Shown here piece by piece: positions 22,774 through 56,873 of a stretch of DNA of 64,000 nucleotides. Within the stretch, counting starts at the first letter, position 1. Every line of letters begins with the position of its first letter. Position numbers and translations under genes: made by a program. Under the pieces are notes generated by a model. The model saw only the letters and a program-made list of their open reading frames with translations, was not told the DNA's origin and did not search any database. This DNA comes from Acarospora socialis. Its lineage: Eukaryota; Ascomycota; Lecanoromycetes; Acarosporales; Acarosporaceae. The DNA lies in assembly GCA_025617375.2 (NCBI GenBank), contig JAMYGW020000014.1, positions 434,001-498,000 on the forward strand, read 5' to 3'.

Positions 22774-23733
22774 CTATTCCAGGCCTAAGAGATGATGCTT
22801 GTCCTCTTCCTGATGGGGTGCGTCGCTGGTCTGTTGCAGACTAGGAAGTTGGCGCAAGAGCAAATGGTATTTGCGCAAGACCACGTGGTATCGGTCCAGT
22901 AGGCTGAGATACCGACTGTTCGACTCGTTATAGCGGTCTGCTGCGCGCTTGAGCTGTCGTTCCATTTCACTGTTCCGAGCCCGCAGTGCATCCCTTTCCT
23001 TAAGAGTGCCTCCAGCTGTAATCTTGATCAATGCATTTTCCAACTTGCCAACTTCTACTTCTCGTGCCGCAATCCGTAGTGCCCCTTTGTCGACCCCCGA
23101 CCGCTGTTGACTCGTCATCTCCTTCGGAGCTAGGTTCGCCCTCTCCTCTTCGTACTTGGACTCCCCTTGGATTGTCTCAATTGCTTTGTCAAGACTGTAA
23201 TCCGTCTTTCCTAAGGTACCGGTGACCACCTTCTTTAGGATCTGGTCCGCGAGTCCATCGATCAATTGATCTGCAACCTCTCGATCCCATTCTTTCTGGT
23301 CTCCCAAGCGCCGTAAGATATCTCTCCCAACCTCACAGTAATCACTCAATGAACGTTTACCCTGCTGAAGGACCGAAAACTCCCTGATAGCTTGACGCTT
23401 ATTGTCCTTTTGTGTCTGTTGCGGAAACCTTTGCTGCAGCCCTTCCGTAAGCTTCACCCAATCACCACTAATCGTGTCGTCGAGGCTGAGAATCCATTTC
23501 CTGGCTTCGCCCGTGGTGTTGGAGATAATGGTGGTGATCCTCGCATCATCAAAATCTCCAGGGCTGTCGTCGAACAAGTGCTTTCGACCAGTGAAAGCAT
23601 ATTTGACTTGCTTCACAAAAAGCTTCACATCTTCACCTGGTGTTCCAGAGAAGGTCTCGATACGACTGGCCGCCATTGGGTATTCGTTCATGGCAAGTGA
23701 TTCCAAATTCTCGACACCGGTAGACGATCTCAT
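22774..23733 (-). mobile_element. solo Gag-like ORF (Retrotrans_gag type), 319 aa; looks whole
   Basis: The frame is open from an ATG at 23733 to a stop at 22774. Residues about 20-170 have the layout of the Retrotrans_gag domain of Ty3/Gypsy-like elements: RIETFSGTPGEDVKLFVKQV at the front, then ARKWILSLDD, then W...L...L..RFPQ, then the helical DYCEVGRDILRRLGD. No CCHC zinc knuckle is seen. The C-terminal part (about 215-300) is predicted coiled coil (LENALIKITAGGTLKERDAL). I see no protease, reverse transcriptase, integrase or LTR within several kilobases on this strand. It is therefore either a stranded Gag fossil or a Gag-derived host gene. The Gag ORF itself appears whole; age cannot be judged. 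Confidence 0.65.
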
Positions 23734-24684
23734 GAACTGATGGATGTTCAAGATGTCTTTCAACGATGTATCGATGATGGCGATGTTACCAGCTGTGGTA
23801 GGTCGGGATGCTGTTACGGCAATGATCGATTGATTTGGACGGTAGAAGGGTTAACGATGGACTCTTGTATGCCGTATGGTTCGAGTAAAGACGTTGCCGT
23901 AAGCACCCTCAAGTTCCGGTGAGTTGAAGTTATTTGACGGCAACCTATCCCGTTGAAAGATCAGCGACGTTGGTCTCGTCCTGACCCCGTCCTGACCCCC
24001 TCCGAGTCTTGTCCCTGATCCGTGACAATCTCTTACCAGACGCCACTAGGTCTGTGTATGTTATACTGTTATGGCAAGGTATACCTCTTCGGAGTGTCCC
24101 TTGGTGATGGTGGTGACTAGGTAGAGGTGTGCTTAGGCAACGATGGCATGGCGAATGGTGATGACCACTTGACCCATCGGTTGACAATGAGCTGAGATGA
24201 GATGTCCCGTGCCCTTGTGCCGTGTGGCTTTTTCATTGTAGGTGTAACGCATTCCTTCCTCCTGATGAGAGGTGTTCCTTCTTAACCTGAAAGGAGTTTC
24301 TTGTCGAGTAAACATGAAACTTTTGGTGGGTGACGAGGTGGTTCGTCGATGGAGGTTGAGGGGTGAAAATTTCCCGTCCTTCCTTCCCCGATCTTCCCAC
24401 CTCTCTTTCTCACAAACACTCCCACAACCTCACTCGAACATCACAAACTACGCCGTACCGACAGGGTCATATTTCAACATCGAGAAGGCCAATGTGAGCG
24501 CGGTCGCACTAGTGTCTTGTGATACCTGTCATGGCCATCAAGATGAATCGCATGGGTGTCATGCAAGGTTTGGTTGTGGGTTGGATACATTGGCTGATTG
24601 ATGTCCTTCAAAAGGCTGGGGAGGGTTGGGAGGCAGACCCGAAAACCTACTTTAAGGCAAAGTGCAATACAGCAGTCACCAGCT
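23734..24684. other. no supported gene
   Basis: Open frames at 24272-24601 and 24519-24710 (+) are partly protein-like (GLVVGWIHWLIDVLQKAGE) but share no recognisable domain. A 10-bp direct duplication (GTCCTGACCC) occurs at about 23977-24000. Confidence 0.25.
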
Positions 24685-24820
24685 ACATACTCTCGCCCGG
24701 CTCGATATAATTCACGTCACATGTGGGGATATGGTACGCTTACCTTTTTCAGAAGTGACTAAGGTAAGCGTATCATATCCCCACACGTGACGTGAATTAT
24801 ATCGAGCGGCGCGAGTACGT
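24685..24820. repeat. 136-bp foldback (palindromic) element, copy 1
   Basis: The left arm begins ACATACTCTCGCCCGG and continues CTCGATATAATTCACG. The right arm is its reverse complement, with only two mismatches in the inner 46 bases and a few differences at the outer end. The centre is a loop of about 14 bases, flanked by GTACGCTTACC and GGTAAGCGTA. A second copy is at 56741-56873. The shape suits a MITE-like or foldback repeat. No coding capacity and no clear target-site duplication are visible. Confidence 0.85.
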
Positions 24821-25011: not shown

Positions 25012-25092
25012 GGTGACGATGAGATCCCGATTTATGAGGTGTTGCATATGTAGGTGACGATGGGATCTCGATTATGAGGTGTTGCATATGTA
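25012..25092 (+). repeat. 40/41-bp tandem duplication
   Basis: Two adjacent units begin GGTGACGATG and end GTTGCATATGTA. They differ by two transitions and one single-base indel, which points to a fairly recent duplication. It lies about 190 bases from the foldback element. Confidence 0.85.
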
Positions 25093-25394: not shown

Positions 25395-26984
25395 TTATGT
25401 CGGCCTCTCTTGGCTCCCTAAACAGGTATCCCACCACTTCTTGAAATCTGTCCCAACCCATCTACCCAGGCATTCCAAAGCGGCAAGAATGGTAAAGCAA
25501 CCAAGTACGGTTGCTGTTGTGCCTATGTTGATCTCCCGAAAAATGGTGACTGAGCATGTAGGGTTAAAGAGGGCGTTGGTGGTCTGGGGATTCGGGTTGC
25601 AATAGGCGATAAGGAATTTCCAATTATGACCCTGAATAACGACCAGGGGGAGAATTGGTAGAGGGCATGGTTGAGATGGTTGATGGGTGGATAAAGCGAT
25701 GATTTGACGCAGTTTAGCAAAGTGTGCTGTGACCCACAGGGAGAGTTGTACGTGTGCGTTGTCTTCATCGATTGCAGCGCATTTGCTTTCCATGCCCACT
25801 GCTATTGGGCTGAAGCGAAGAGATTGTGGGTCAATCGGGTTGATGCTTGGTCTCGAATTTGAAGGGTAGGCTTGTTTCAAGAAACCCAGGATATTCGCTC
25901 TTAAGTTGGGATCGGGCTCGAGCATCATCACAAAATCTACCGATTTGCTGGGCATTTTTGAGTACGGTTGAGTGCCAGACCCGAATCTGGTTGGTAGCAG
26001 GGAAGTGTCATGTATGTGGTCGGTGGTGATATTTTGATACCATACATTTGAGCTGGCGCGGCAGGATCCGAGGGCGAGGCGCAGGATGCGGCTGTGAACT
26101 TCACCGTTCCATTCTGGTTCCGACAATCCTCGATTGTGACATTCTCTTGCTGCCGTGTTCGCTTCCAGGAGTTTGTGCCAGAAGAGTGCTGACCTTTTGC
26201 ATCCATGCAATTCTCCGACCAGATCATATCTTCTGCCCTCAATATGCTCATAATTGCTCTCTTGAATCAACTTCGCTTTATCTAATTCGCGCATCTCATC
26301 TTGAAACACTCTCGGGATAACACCCAACCCTGCGCTTATTCGGCACATTTCTTCATACAGTGCCGTGGCTACTTCTGGTACTGGGTAACCCGTTGTATCA
26401 AAGTCCTTCAATTCCACTTGAACGTCGGTTAGCTGGAAATCGGCTATGCTCTTTGTTGGGCTCCCACTCCTCGACCCAATGCTTGCGGAGGAGGTTGACG
26501 ATGCCTTTGACTGCCGTCCGCTTGCGACAAATCCAGAGTGTGGGACCTCGAAAAGCATCGTTCTGGTGATGGCTGCCGGTCTGGGTGTTTGTTCTTTGTC
26601 CAGTAACGAGGCGTGTTGGTCTGGGTTAGGAGTTGAGGGTGGGACTGGTGTTGCCGTGTTGTCTGTTATCATTAGACTTGTATCTTCGCTGGGTGATCGT
26701 TTGCGTTTCCGTTTGGGGGTGAGTTGTGACAATGGTCGTCTCAACTTCTCCTGTTCACTCATTGCGTTTACTGTGATCTCTTTAAGTCGTGGGCGCTTAT
26801 TGGACGATATTGAACTTTGTTCAACTGCGTGAAGCAATATTTCTTTGTGATTCCTCTCCAGATCTCCACCACAATGCACAGCTTCGTATTCTGTTGGAAC
26901 AACGGGGTGATCTTGAAGCCAAGAGGTAATGCTGGTTGTGCTGCCACTATCTGACCATAGTTGCTTGTTATTGTATTCGGGCAT
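25395..26984 (-). CDS. PD-(D/E)XK nuclease-like protein (PDDEXK_12 type), 529 aa, intact
   Basis: The frame is open further upstream to 27095 without an ATG, and the first ATG is at 26984. The N-terminal 200 residues look disordered, with a basic cluster (PKRKRKRSPSED) and a Ser-rich tract, typical of this fungal family. The conserved C-terminal half follows. EPEWNGEVHSRILRLAL lies near residue 289 and VDFVMMLEPD at about 349. SINPIDPQSLRFSPIAVGMESK then ends in the E-x-K pair (E399, K401), with D350 as the likely third catalytic residue. LSLWVTAHFAKLRQI and a Gly/Leu-rich tail follow. No frame break is seen and the catalytic residues are present, so the protein may be active. The biological role of these fungal proteins is not known to me. 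A decayed relative lies at 45.6-46.4 kb. Confidence 0.75.
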   Translation of the reverse strand: MPEYNNKQLWSDSGSTTSITSWLQDHPVVPTEYEAVHCGGDLERNHKEILLHAVEQSSISSNKRPRLKEITVNAMSEQEKLRRPLSQLTPKRKRKRSPSEDTSLMITDNTATPVPPSTPNPDQHASLLDKEQTPRPAAITRTMLFEVPHSGFVASGRQSKASSTSSASIGSRSGSPTKSIADFQLTDVQVELKDFDTTGYPVPEVATALYEEMCRISAGLGVIPRVFQDEMRELDKAKLIQESNYEHIEGRRYDLVGELHGCKRSALFWHKLLEANTAARECHNRGLSEPEWNGEVHSRILRLALGSCRASSNVWYQNITTDHIHDTSLLPTRFGSGTQPYSKMPSKSVDFVMMLEPDPNLRANILGFLKQAYPSNSRPSINPIDPQSLRFSPIAVGMESKCAAIDEDNAHVQLSLWVTAHFAKLRQIIALSTHQPSQPCPLPILPLVVIQGHNWKFLIAYCNPNPQTTNALFNPTCSVTIFREINIGTTATVLGCFTILAALECLGRWVGTDFKKWWDTCLGSQERPT

Positions 26985-28381
26985 GAAAGTAACTAAGCTG
27001 TACAACCTTCCAGCGCGGATGAGTAAGGTATGCTCAAAGTAAATTGTGTCTTCAATTTTACATCCTACAAGTACAAGCGGCTTGACTCGGGACAATCCAC
27101 GGCTAAAAGAGGAGGCTTATGACTAGCAAAGGGCAATGCAGTTGCTACGAGTAAATTTTAACACCTAATTATGCATTTATTGTGAACTACGAATAGCTAA
27201 TACGAAATCCTCAGCATACCCCCTCCACACGCCCCTGCAATCCTTCCTAGGCCTCAATGGAAGACCCCCGCCTCCGCAATCATCTTCAAGCCTCGACGGT
27301 GCCGCAGCCCCCGCAGTCCTCCCAGAAACCCCCGACGGAACCCTACAAAGGCACATCCCTACTTTCCACCCCGGGGCCCCTTTCTCCTCTGCACGTGCGA
27401 ACCCCACCCCGAATGGCCAACATCCCAAGTTGTGTAGAGATCATCCTCAACCTCCATACCCAGCGAATCTGATACTGTGCTGAGGACCCTCAGCCACAAG
27501 TTGAGCGCAGTGCTCATTGGCTGCATCGCAAGTGGGGTTGTAGCGATCATGGACAGAGAGGGGGTCCTCTGGACAGTCATAATAGTCGCGGACGGCCCTG
27601 TGCTTGGTTAACTCGAGACTTGTCATCCTCGCAATTACACATTCAGATTCCGGTCCTGGAAGCTCTTGGCTGCCTCAAGAGACACTTGCTCGGCGTCTCA
27701 TCGACGACGACGAGGGTGTAGTACCACCGGCGCGTGCCGTGGAGGATACTGGTTTGATACTGTCTCGTCTATAGACCGGGAGCACTGGAGCAATGATCAC
27801 GGTGCTTTGATGGCGACGATGGTGTCACCAATTGAACTGTTTGAAGACAGTACAAGCACGGCACTGACGAAGTGGGGAGGATCTCCATATCTCCGAAGAA
27901 CCTGGAGCTCGACGAAACCGTGGCGGCCGCGGGAGCGGTTCGAGAGGGTATCGGTTCAGCTCCAGAAGTAATCGACGAAACTCAACAGCATACGTTGCCG
28001 CGGCTGAAAGTGCGTTGATCACGTCACAGGAGTATGCTAAGCTGGAGCAGGGCAGACGAAGGGTGCCAAGTGACTTCAGAAAGGGCGCCATGTCTTTAAG
28101 CGGAGGCCATCTAGGCAAAAACAACGCTTCCCGAAATCACGTCTGCCTCCAACAGGGAAGATCTCCAGCCCGCACAAGAGACCGCTCAAAGAGCAGGGAG
28201 CAACGCGAAACCGAAGATGAAGACTGGGGAAGGTCCGGATGAGGGGATGGCAAAGGCTTTGGGTCGTTGTGGTTTATATGGTGCACCTTTGAGTGATTGA
28301 GGGTCGAGCCCCTGTATTCCGTAAGTCAGGAACTATTAGCGGTGAATTGGGAGCAAGTACAAAGACCCTTACAATGACACA
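26985..28381 (+). pseudogene. possible decayed gene, unidentified
   Basis: A plus-strand frame at about 27,270-27,610 gives AVLPETPDGTLQRHIPTFHP and LSHKLSAVLIGCIASGVVA, interrupted once by a stop. Further protein-like pieces follow in changing frames up to about 28,300 (for example SPKNLELDETVAAAG). No family is recognised. It may be a broken gene of about 1 kb. Confidence 0.25.
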
Positions 28382-28432: not shown

Positions 28433-29062
28433 ATGGACATGCAGAGCATACGGACCTTTGATCAGCGGCGAACCAAGTCACGCTGGCGCTGTCGCTGGCG
28501 CTGGCGCGGGAGTGGTGGACATGGATGGGAGGAGAGTTGGCATGAAGCGACATCTGCTCGGGGTGTGCGGGGGTGTGGGGATGTGGGGGTGCGGGAATGT
28601 GGGGATGTGGGGATGCGGGGATGCGGGGATGCAGGTATGTGGGGGTGTGGGCTTGGGGGGGCTGCTATCTCTTTGTATGGAAAAGGGATCAGGCGGGGCT
28701 CGCCAAGGCTCCACAGACAGGGTGGGTTGGGCAAGGATTATCAGGGCTTCACAAGAGGCAAACCTTCACAGACTTCCAAGCCTGAAGAAATTCTTGAAGA
28801 GATGCAGACACCACTGTCTAAGTGTATCAAAGGTCACCAAGAAGGGAGGGCGGAGGATTGCCCCAAGACTTCACTGAAGGGCGGACCTTCAAGAACTTCC
28901 AAGCCCGGAGGAGTGCTCAAAGAGATGCAGACATTGAAGCAGAGCCGTCAAGTGTATCAAGGTGACGGAAAAGGACTGGCGGGGGATCGCCAAGGCTTCA
29001 ATGGAGGCCGGATCGGCCAGAGGATCGCTGAGCCTTCTCGCGGAAGCAATCTTAGCAGTTGA
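28433..29062 (+). CDS. doubtful ORF over minisatellites, up to 209 aa
   Basis: The frame is open from an ATG at 28433 (an upstream GTG at 28382 also opens it). It runs through a G-rich minisatellite, encoding CGD/CGDVG-like repeats, and then through a 123-bp repeat encoding SKPEEILEEMQT and SKPGGVLKEMQT. The open frame may only reflect repeat units whose lengths are multiples of three. If real, it would be an internally repetitive protein of unknown role. Confidence 0.2.
   Translation: MDMQSIRTFDQRRTKSRWRCRWRWRGSGGHGWEESWHEATSARGVRGCGDVGVRECGDVGMRGCGDAGMWGCGLGGAAISLYGKGIRRGSPRLHRQGGLGKDYQGFTRGKPSQTSKPEEILEEMQTPLSKCIKGHQEGRAEDCPKTSLKGGPSRTSKPGGVLKEMQTLKQSRQVYQGDGKGLAGDRQGFNGGRIGQRIAEPSRGSNLSS
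28561..28660 (+). repeat. G-rich minisatellite, 8-9 bp units
   Basis: About ten imperfect units of GGGGATGTG/GGGGATGCG occur in a row. Runs of four or five G on one strand give potential for G-quadruplex formation. Confidence 0.8.
28746..29020 (+). repeat. tandem repeat with unit about 122-125 bp
   Basis: CTTCACAAGAGGCAAACCTT near 28747 recurs as CTTCACTGAAGGGCGGACCTT near 28869 and partly as CTTCAATGGAGGCCGGAT near 28994. A still earlier partial unit ends near 28715 (TCGCCAAGGCTCCAC). Confidence 0.65.
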
Positions 29063-56740: not shown

Positions 56741-56873
56741 AGGTACTCGCGGCGCTCGAATTGATTCAGGTCACGTGTGAAGATATGGTACGCTTACCGA
56801 TCTCGGGGTGACTAAGGTAAGCGTACCATATCCCCACACATGACGTGAATCAATTCGAGCGCCGCGAGTACGT
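56741..56873. repeat. 133-bp foldback (palindromic) element, copy 2
   Basis: The left arm reads GTACTCGCGGCGCTCGAATT then GATTCAGGTCACGTGTG. The right arm is the reverse complement, with six mismatches in the inner 46 bases. The loop is about 14 bases (near ATCTCGGGGTGACT). It matches copy 1 at 24685-24820 along both arms, but the block ATTGA replaces TATAA in both arms of this copy. No target-site duplication is visible. Confidence 0.85.

Follow-up and report, generated by a model that had tools for sequence, protein, structure and literature searches.

A dispersed family of TA-flanked palindromes in Acarospora socialis, with arms that probably change together while mobile and decay apart after landing

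The locus

The window, that is, the whole 64,000-nucleotide stretch of DNA analysed here, covers positions 434001-498000 of contig C14 (598 kb), in a genome of 31.1 Mb and 38 contigs. Two palindromes lie in it at the places where the original prediction had put them, copy 1 at 24688-24817 (130 nt from TA to TA) and copy 2 at 56744-56870 (127 nt). Among the four inverted repeats in the window with arms of at least 25 nt lying no more than 2 kb apart, these palindromes are the best two (60 nt at 90% and 66 nt at 88%), the remaining ones being 26 nt at 73% and 25 nt at 72%. The parts of the two copies are as follows.

24688..24742, + strand: left arm of copy 1 with flanking TA, 55 nt, with an extra TC near the end (TACTCTCGC)
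24706..24710, + strand: TATAA block in the left arm of copy 1, partner TTATA at 24797-24801 (read by eye)
24743..24764, + strand: centre or loop of copy 1, 22 nt, CCTTTTTCAGAAGTGACTAAGG
24765..24817, + strand: right arm of copy 1 with flanking TA, 53 nt
56744..56796, + strand: left arm of copy 2 with flanking TA, 53 nt
56760..56764, + strand: ATTGA block in the left arm of copy 2, partner TCAAT at 56850-56854 (read by eye)
56797..56817, + strand: centre or loop of copy 2, 21 nt, CCGATCTCGGGGTGACTAAGG
56818..56870, + strand: right arm of copy 2 with flanking TA, 53 nt

In the centre of copy 1 the outer CCTT and AAGG are still paired, which leaves 14 nt. Across the 53 arm columns that were aligned, each window copy shows 4 mismatches between its arms. 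Since two of the four in copy 1 fall within the outer stretch that carries the indel, and copy 2 has two more mismatches at the loop edge (both by eye), the earlier count of 2 mismatches in copy 1 and 6 in copy 2 over the inner 46 bases is reasonable. A five-base block had also been described as TATAA in both arms of one copy and ATTGA in both arms of the other. These blocks are present, but they do not represent a five-base replacement: compared with TATGA in the nearest copies, TATAA amounts to one paired change on a terminal branch (G to A) and ATTGA to two adjacent paired changes (TA to AT).

With regard to the surroundings, a 566-aa frame at 25395-27095 (- strand), about 0.6 kb from copy 1, contains a PDDEXK_12 nuclease-superfamily domain (E 2.2e-55) and has no solved relative by sequence at E 0.001. 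A 329-aa frame with a retrotransposon gag domain lies at 22774-23763 (- strand). The window also contains a 40-bp unit present twice in tandem (25012-25092) and a minisatellite of 8/24-bp units (28566-28651).

Family size and distribution

A covariance model built from 24 of the family's copies was run on 38 sources and gave 32 distinct places at E<0.01; there are remnants in addition. A hand count arrives at 34 places, namely these 32 with C10:1450860 and C26:10605 added, spread over 12 contigs. The family was located in the genome with seven copies as queries and among the listed matches to a 15-base end pattern; the last two copy queries brought no new place. Contig C14 holds 7 of the 34 places where 0.65 would be expected (p 3e-6), and may be a repeat-rich or accessory region. 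Two further places lie on contig C26, which is 29.5 kb long.

Comparison of the fetched loci, with flanks of 200 bp to 3 kb, found no match of at least 170 bp adjoining the copies. Plain segmental duplication is thus ruled out, the flanks being unrelated at the 170-bp level, and the dispersed foldback family that had been proposed from two copies is supported. No named element of such a kind was recognised in a literature search, and the arm sequences were not found in the texts of papers. The exact core hairpin pattern had 0 matches in a collection of viral contigs (viral_contigs) and 0 in a prokaryotic collection (genome_contigs).

Architecture of the element

A typical copy is 125 bp long and consists of a TA, a 51-nt arm, a centre of about 20 nt, the other arm and a second TA. 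Lengths range from 115 to 147 nt in the 22 copies measured, a size that would leave no space for a transposase. The element ends are TACTCGCG/CGCGAGTA. TA is found at both ends of 21 of the 22 copies and is missing from one end of the other, the ends having been shifted by 1-3 bases to the nearest TA in 4 of the 22 (copy 1, C8:641510, C8:632278 and C6:1392883). Direct repeats of 1-6 bp beyond the TA are not above chance (1 bp in 7, 2 bp in 2 and 3 bp in 1 of the 22). A foldback element of the Mutator type was rejected, the 8-10 bp target duplication being absent and the longest direct match 3 bp, in a single copy, within the 1-6 bp counted. The hairpins predicted for five folded copies are very stable, at -94.6 to -119.7 kcal/mol.

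The centre measures 19-22 nt in 19 of 25 copies and 16-36 nt across all 25. A loop motif, ACTAA, stands on one side only in 14 of the 25, on both sides in 1 and is absent from 10, with copies oriented by eye from the loop, partly via this very motif. It recurs under six arm types, sorted by eye, and since a one-sided motif persists in this way across arm types, the palindromes were probably not re-formed each time. Between C2:1325446 and C6:596365 the loop differs at 4 of 19 positions and the arms at 3 of 106 (p 0.01, counted by eye), so that in this one pair of copies only, the loop changes faster than the arms. Other loop-edge changes, likewise read by eye, are an insertion in C4:1734669 that creates 7 pairs (CCTTAGT/ACTAAGG) and a left loop edge in C6:1392883 that resembles the reverse complement of the right one. 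A run of CCTTA units lies beside the loop of C8:632278 (L009 2974-3120), the only such copy among 30 loops.

Classification and search for a partner

The copies have terminal inverted repeats, are short, contain no coding frame and are dispersed among unrelated flanks, in agreement with what defines a MITE. Membership of Tc1/mariner is unproven, because neither an empty site nor a partner transposase was found among the loci examined. With regard to the partner, arm-like ends were absent from the 12 of 17 DDE_1 (PF03184) matches and the 6 of 19 DDE_3 (PF13358) matches that were fetched. The nearest arm-like 15-mers at these loci have 3 mismatches, in L058 and L060; the one in L058, which we take for chance, sits a few bases inside the TTTCCCTGTTA end repeat of a DDE_1 element. 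Three single-end remnants, extended by 2.3-2.6 kb, showed no arm-like partner end. The empty site was sought with one flank each of C26:4373 and copy 1 and in the comparison of fetched loci. The flank of C26:4373 has partial relatives at C9 and C1, stopping 112 and 141 bp before the element, and for that of copy 1 no relative was found.

The transposase loci themselves include a DDE_1 family, which we take to be of the Fot1/pogo type, with members L058 (C5:1087735), L060, L061, L064, L066, L067 and L068. Their identity to L058 is 64-94% in aligned pieces 0.6-1.8 kb long, and all except L058 have stops in the match, mostly TGA. The L058 ends, TTTCCCTGTTA followed by TCGAGC, are unlike those of the palindromes. 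Around the DDE_3 matches of L071 and L072, exact inverted repeats of 52 and 34 nt span about 1.3 kb and are possibly the ends of other transposons.

Paired change between the arms

The original prediction held that the arms share copy-specific changes, and the family as a whole supports it. In an alignment of 24 copies with 55 pairs, 92.5% of the 1274 cells pair. Cells in which both partners have changed number 124, against 39.4 +/- 5.5 in 500 shuffles, none of which reaches 124, and sliding the partners by 1-3 columns as a control leaves 8-27 such cells. The number of further pair types is a weaker measure (59 against 54.0, reached by 19 of 500 shuffles).

Because the shuffle control leaves relatedness in, changes were also counted on a tree. 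Of 30 aligned copies, five fragments (C1:484078, C1:2927850, C7:1492948, C1:3857804 and C8:935588) were dropped from the mismatch and tree counts, leaving 25; in seven truncated or indel-bearing arms, stretches were masked for the tree counts and left unmasked for the per-copy mismatch counts. The tree has 45 paired changes, an approximate figure given a neighbour-joining tree of short arms, and 15 of them lie on terminal branches, where some states recur elsewhere in the tree (e.g. column 14 in copy 2 and C8:939994). Two of these 15, in C5:1027744 and C8:762015, were set aside with one arm unreadable. The remaining 13, with both arms readable, compare with a mean of 2.8 and a maximum of 12 in 20,000 runs of a null in which the arms change independently at the observed rates with site heterogeneity, a simulation that leaves aside three copies devoid of one-arm changes. 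Of these 13, 11 fall in the 17 copies that have 4 mismatches or fewer, where the null gives a mean of 0.77 and a maximum of 5.

An instructive trio is formed by C2:1325446, C6:596365 and C14:299525. A T to C change present in both of its arms sets C2:1325446 apart from the other two, its own arms being mismatched at 1 of 53 sites. Perfect or near-perfect copies exist with different arm sequences, with 0 of 53 mismatches in C6:1049955 and C6:596365 and 1 of 53 in C20:65298, in addition to C2:1325446.

The distribution of paired changes along the 53 columns is uneven (variance 1.56, expected 0.83, P 0.00035), with 31 of the 45 in the 10 columns that hold two or more. The inner arm end, from column 48 on (GGATATGGTACGCTTA minus its first base), has few: 1, 2 and 1 in three columns and none in the others. 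Transitions and transversions stand at 25:20 among paired changes and 70:35 among one-arm changes, a comparison that gives no clear sign of a special mutation process.

Probable matching before landing and decay after it

The copies range from 0 to 11 mismatches of 53 (25 copies), with 11 in C4:1734669 and C12:473922; C8:939994 has 13 before its indel region is masked and 9 after. Copies with more one-arm mismatches do not have more paired changes on their terminal branches (Spearman -0.19, p 0.36), and the 8 copies with at least 6 mismatches account for 2 of these changes, both in C8:939994. Since paired changes are flat with decay and found mostly in little-decayed copies, the arms appear to match mostly before insertion and to drift later. 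The idea that landed copies are corrected, part of the original prediction, is therefore not supported: their mismatches reach 11 of 53, the correlation is the one just given, and no excess of G-U is found among the mismatches, where 34 would wobble on a + strand RNA and 36 only on a - strand RNA (G-U against A-C). Independent divergence of the arms, which had been held to speak against the prediction, is found in the landed copies and is not found in the lineage.

In 10 of the 25 copies, each arm has the copy's other arm as its nearest sequence, ties included; in 9 this holds for neither arm, and in 6 the outcome is mixed. In the 9, where both arms are closer to an arm of another copy, 4 are truncated or indel-bearing. 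From these counts, the arms of old copies lose their match and come to lie nearest to those of copies that have decayed less.

One-arm changes are less clustered than paired ones (variance 2.74 against 1.94, P 0.028, or 0.12 without the loop-edge column). The 17 columns that are paired-variable on internal branches hold 46 of 105 one-arm changes, about 34 being expected (p 0.012); across all 24 variable columns the figure is 56 of 105 (p 0.12). This excess reflects either more mutable sites or changes that predate landing. In our reading, it is mainly the mobile source that is subject to constraint and matching; once landed, a copy would decay under little constraint. RIP-like decay was rejected, C to T changes favouring neither CpA nor CpG (CpG, 24 of 51 changes at 16 of 33 sites; CpA, 7 of 51 at 5 of 33).

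Matching is also leaky. A 9-10 bp deletion is common to C2:3534911 and C8:762015, where it affects the same arm when the loop is taken as reference. An extra TC marks the left end, as defined by the loop, of copy 1, C8:641510 and C8:632278; at its right end, C8:632278 has an extra CTC. Two lineages have inherited one-arm indels, which shows that arms can stay unmatched through copying, and the earlier claim that each copy is made from one arm via a hairpin is too strong. Three sister pairs (C2:3534911/C8:762015, C14:301887/C14:423374 and C14:382176/C7:1279269) each have one identical one-arm substitution, but such coincidences occur among unrelated copies as well (over all pairs, 44 of 124 cases are identical), which makes these three weak.

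Possible mechanisms

We propose, with a probability of roughly 0.58, that these are TA-flanked palindromic MITE-like elements with arms homogenised while the element is mobile and decaying apart once it has landed. The element would be a small non-autonomous DNA transposon made up almost entirely of inverted repeats, and the TA, a dinucleotide that is itself observed, would be the duplicated target, as in Tc1/mariner elements. During the mobile phase, a change in one arm would soon be copied to the other arm or lost. The likeliest route may be arm-to-arm template switching in replication or in excision-gap repair, processes that would give a transposing palindrome added chances to switch template. 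The asymmetric loop would be retained meanwhile. Successive sources with different but matched arms would give each copy its own paired changes, and a landed copy, no longer maintained, would let its arms decay apart. Template switching is described as homogenising short inverted-repeat arms in yeast genes, where it can invert the spacer (PMC8604942), and as able to maintain hairpin stems (PMC8794818). The original inference of arm-to-arm templating or selection for pairing is thereby kept for the mobile source lineage, without its in-place correction or a templating at each birth.

Among the other readings, selection of the pairing itself in the source is possible but unlikely. Transposition, or an RNA or DNA hairpin, would favour matched arms, and only matched sources would spawn copies. 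The stability of the predicted hairpins and the co-variation that persists in variable columns are consistent with it, as is the processing of human Made1 hairpins to miRNAs reported in PMC1784062. It is at odds with the deletion common to C2:3534911 and C8:762015, according to which a mismatched source could spread. The 34 to 36 balance of wobbles gives no sign of RNA-pairing selection in landed copies and the window has no Rfam match at gathering score; selection on RNA structure after landing was rejected on these grounds. Somewhat more doubtful is a spread through a single-stranded hairpin intermediate, with one arm regularly templating the other and matching a by-product of copying. Each round could then fix a new paired change in one step, and the inherited one-arm indels would be occasional failures of templating. 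Hairpin copying was reportedly proposed early on for fish MITEs by Izsvak and others in 1999.

Repeated fresh formation, in which every subfamily would have started from one end of an autonomous transposon of its own, would at once yield perfect arms of differing sequence. It is nevertheless quite improbable, given that ACTAA, present in 15 of 25 loops, recurs one-sidedly beside the stem under six arm types and that an autonomous element with such ends was not found in the part searched. We find slightly less credible still an ongoing repair in place, in which landed palindromes would be continually corrected by template switching and their arms would co-evolve site by site. Quasipalindrome correction is documented (PMC8604942; PMC3820800) and the loop-edge changes of C4:1734669 and C6:1392883 resemble such events by eye, but old copies retain as many mismatches as those counted above and their terminal paired changes stay flat with decay. 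A family of introner-like or symmetrical introns is very improbable: the Hypoxylaceae sister introns do proliferate with inverted repeats of 45-55 nt (PMC8469720), yet the ends TACTCGCG/CGCGAGTA are not GT..AG, and an open frame of more than 150 aa runs through the joined flanks of 2 of the 22 copies, compared with 33.5% of control points.

Relation to known systems

Mariner elements have TA as their target, and the fungal Tc1/mariner MITEs mimp and Vader are small, TIR-bearing, TA-flanked elements of filamentous fungi. The palindromes resemble the latter in small size, inverted repeats and TA flanks, a likeness of architecture. As in the foldback elements FB, Galileo, Tetris and Tm1, most of the element is taken up by long inverted repeats. 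For Tetris, homogenisation has been suggested for the repeats inside its arms (PMC4079207); it is described with 8-10 bp target duplications and internal tandem arm repeats, neither of which is seen in the palindromes.

Made1 is presented as a human palindromic MITE of the mariner-like Hsmar1, a near-perfect palindrome of 37+6+37 bp (PMC1784062). Both families are described by two inverted repeats with almost no interior, dispersed and non-autonomous. Unlike Made1, the present one has 51-nt arms with TA, about 32 copies and several matched arm types, with no autonomous partner found among the loci examined, and the two are likened by architecture, not sequence. Quasipalindrome correction is alike in that template switching homogenises short inverted-repeat arms (PMC8604942, PMC8794818); there it is described in yeast coding and RNA genes, whereas here matching seems confined to the mobile phase. 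The Hypoxylaceae sister (stw)introns are reported as proliferating fungal inverted repeats whose divergent copies lose their symmetry (PMC8469720), but as spliceosomal introns inside exons, described as lacking target duplication.

Significance

A palindromic element of the MITE-like kind is already known (cf. Made1), and the evolutionary pattern is the point of interest. The identity of transposon inverted repeats is usually taken for granted. In comparisons of copies that all come from one genome, this family appears to split two phases, paired change while mobile and separate decay of the arms after landing. The family is a natural setting in which to weigh template switching against selection for pairing. 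It also carries a caution, as covariation of two arms, often taken to prove a functional RNA hairpin, can arise in mobile DNA that shows no sign of acting as RNA.
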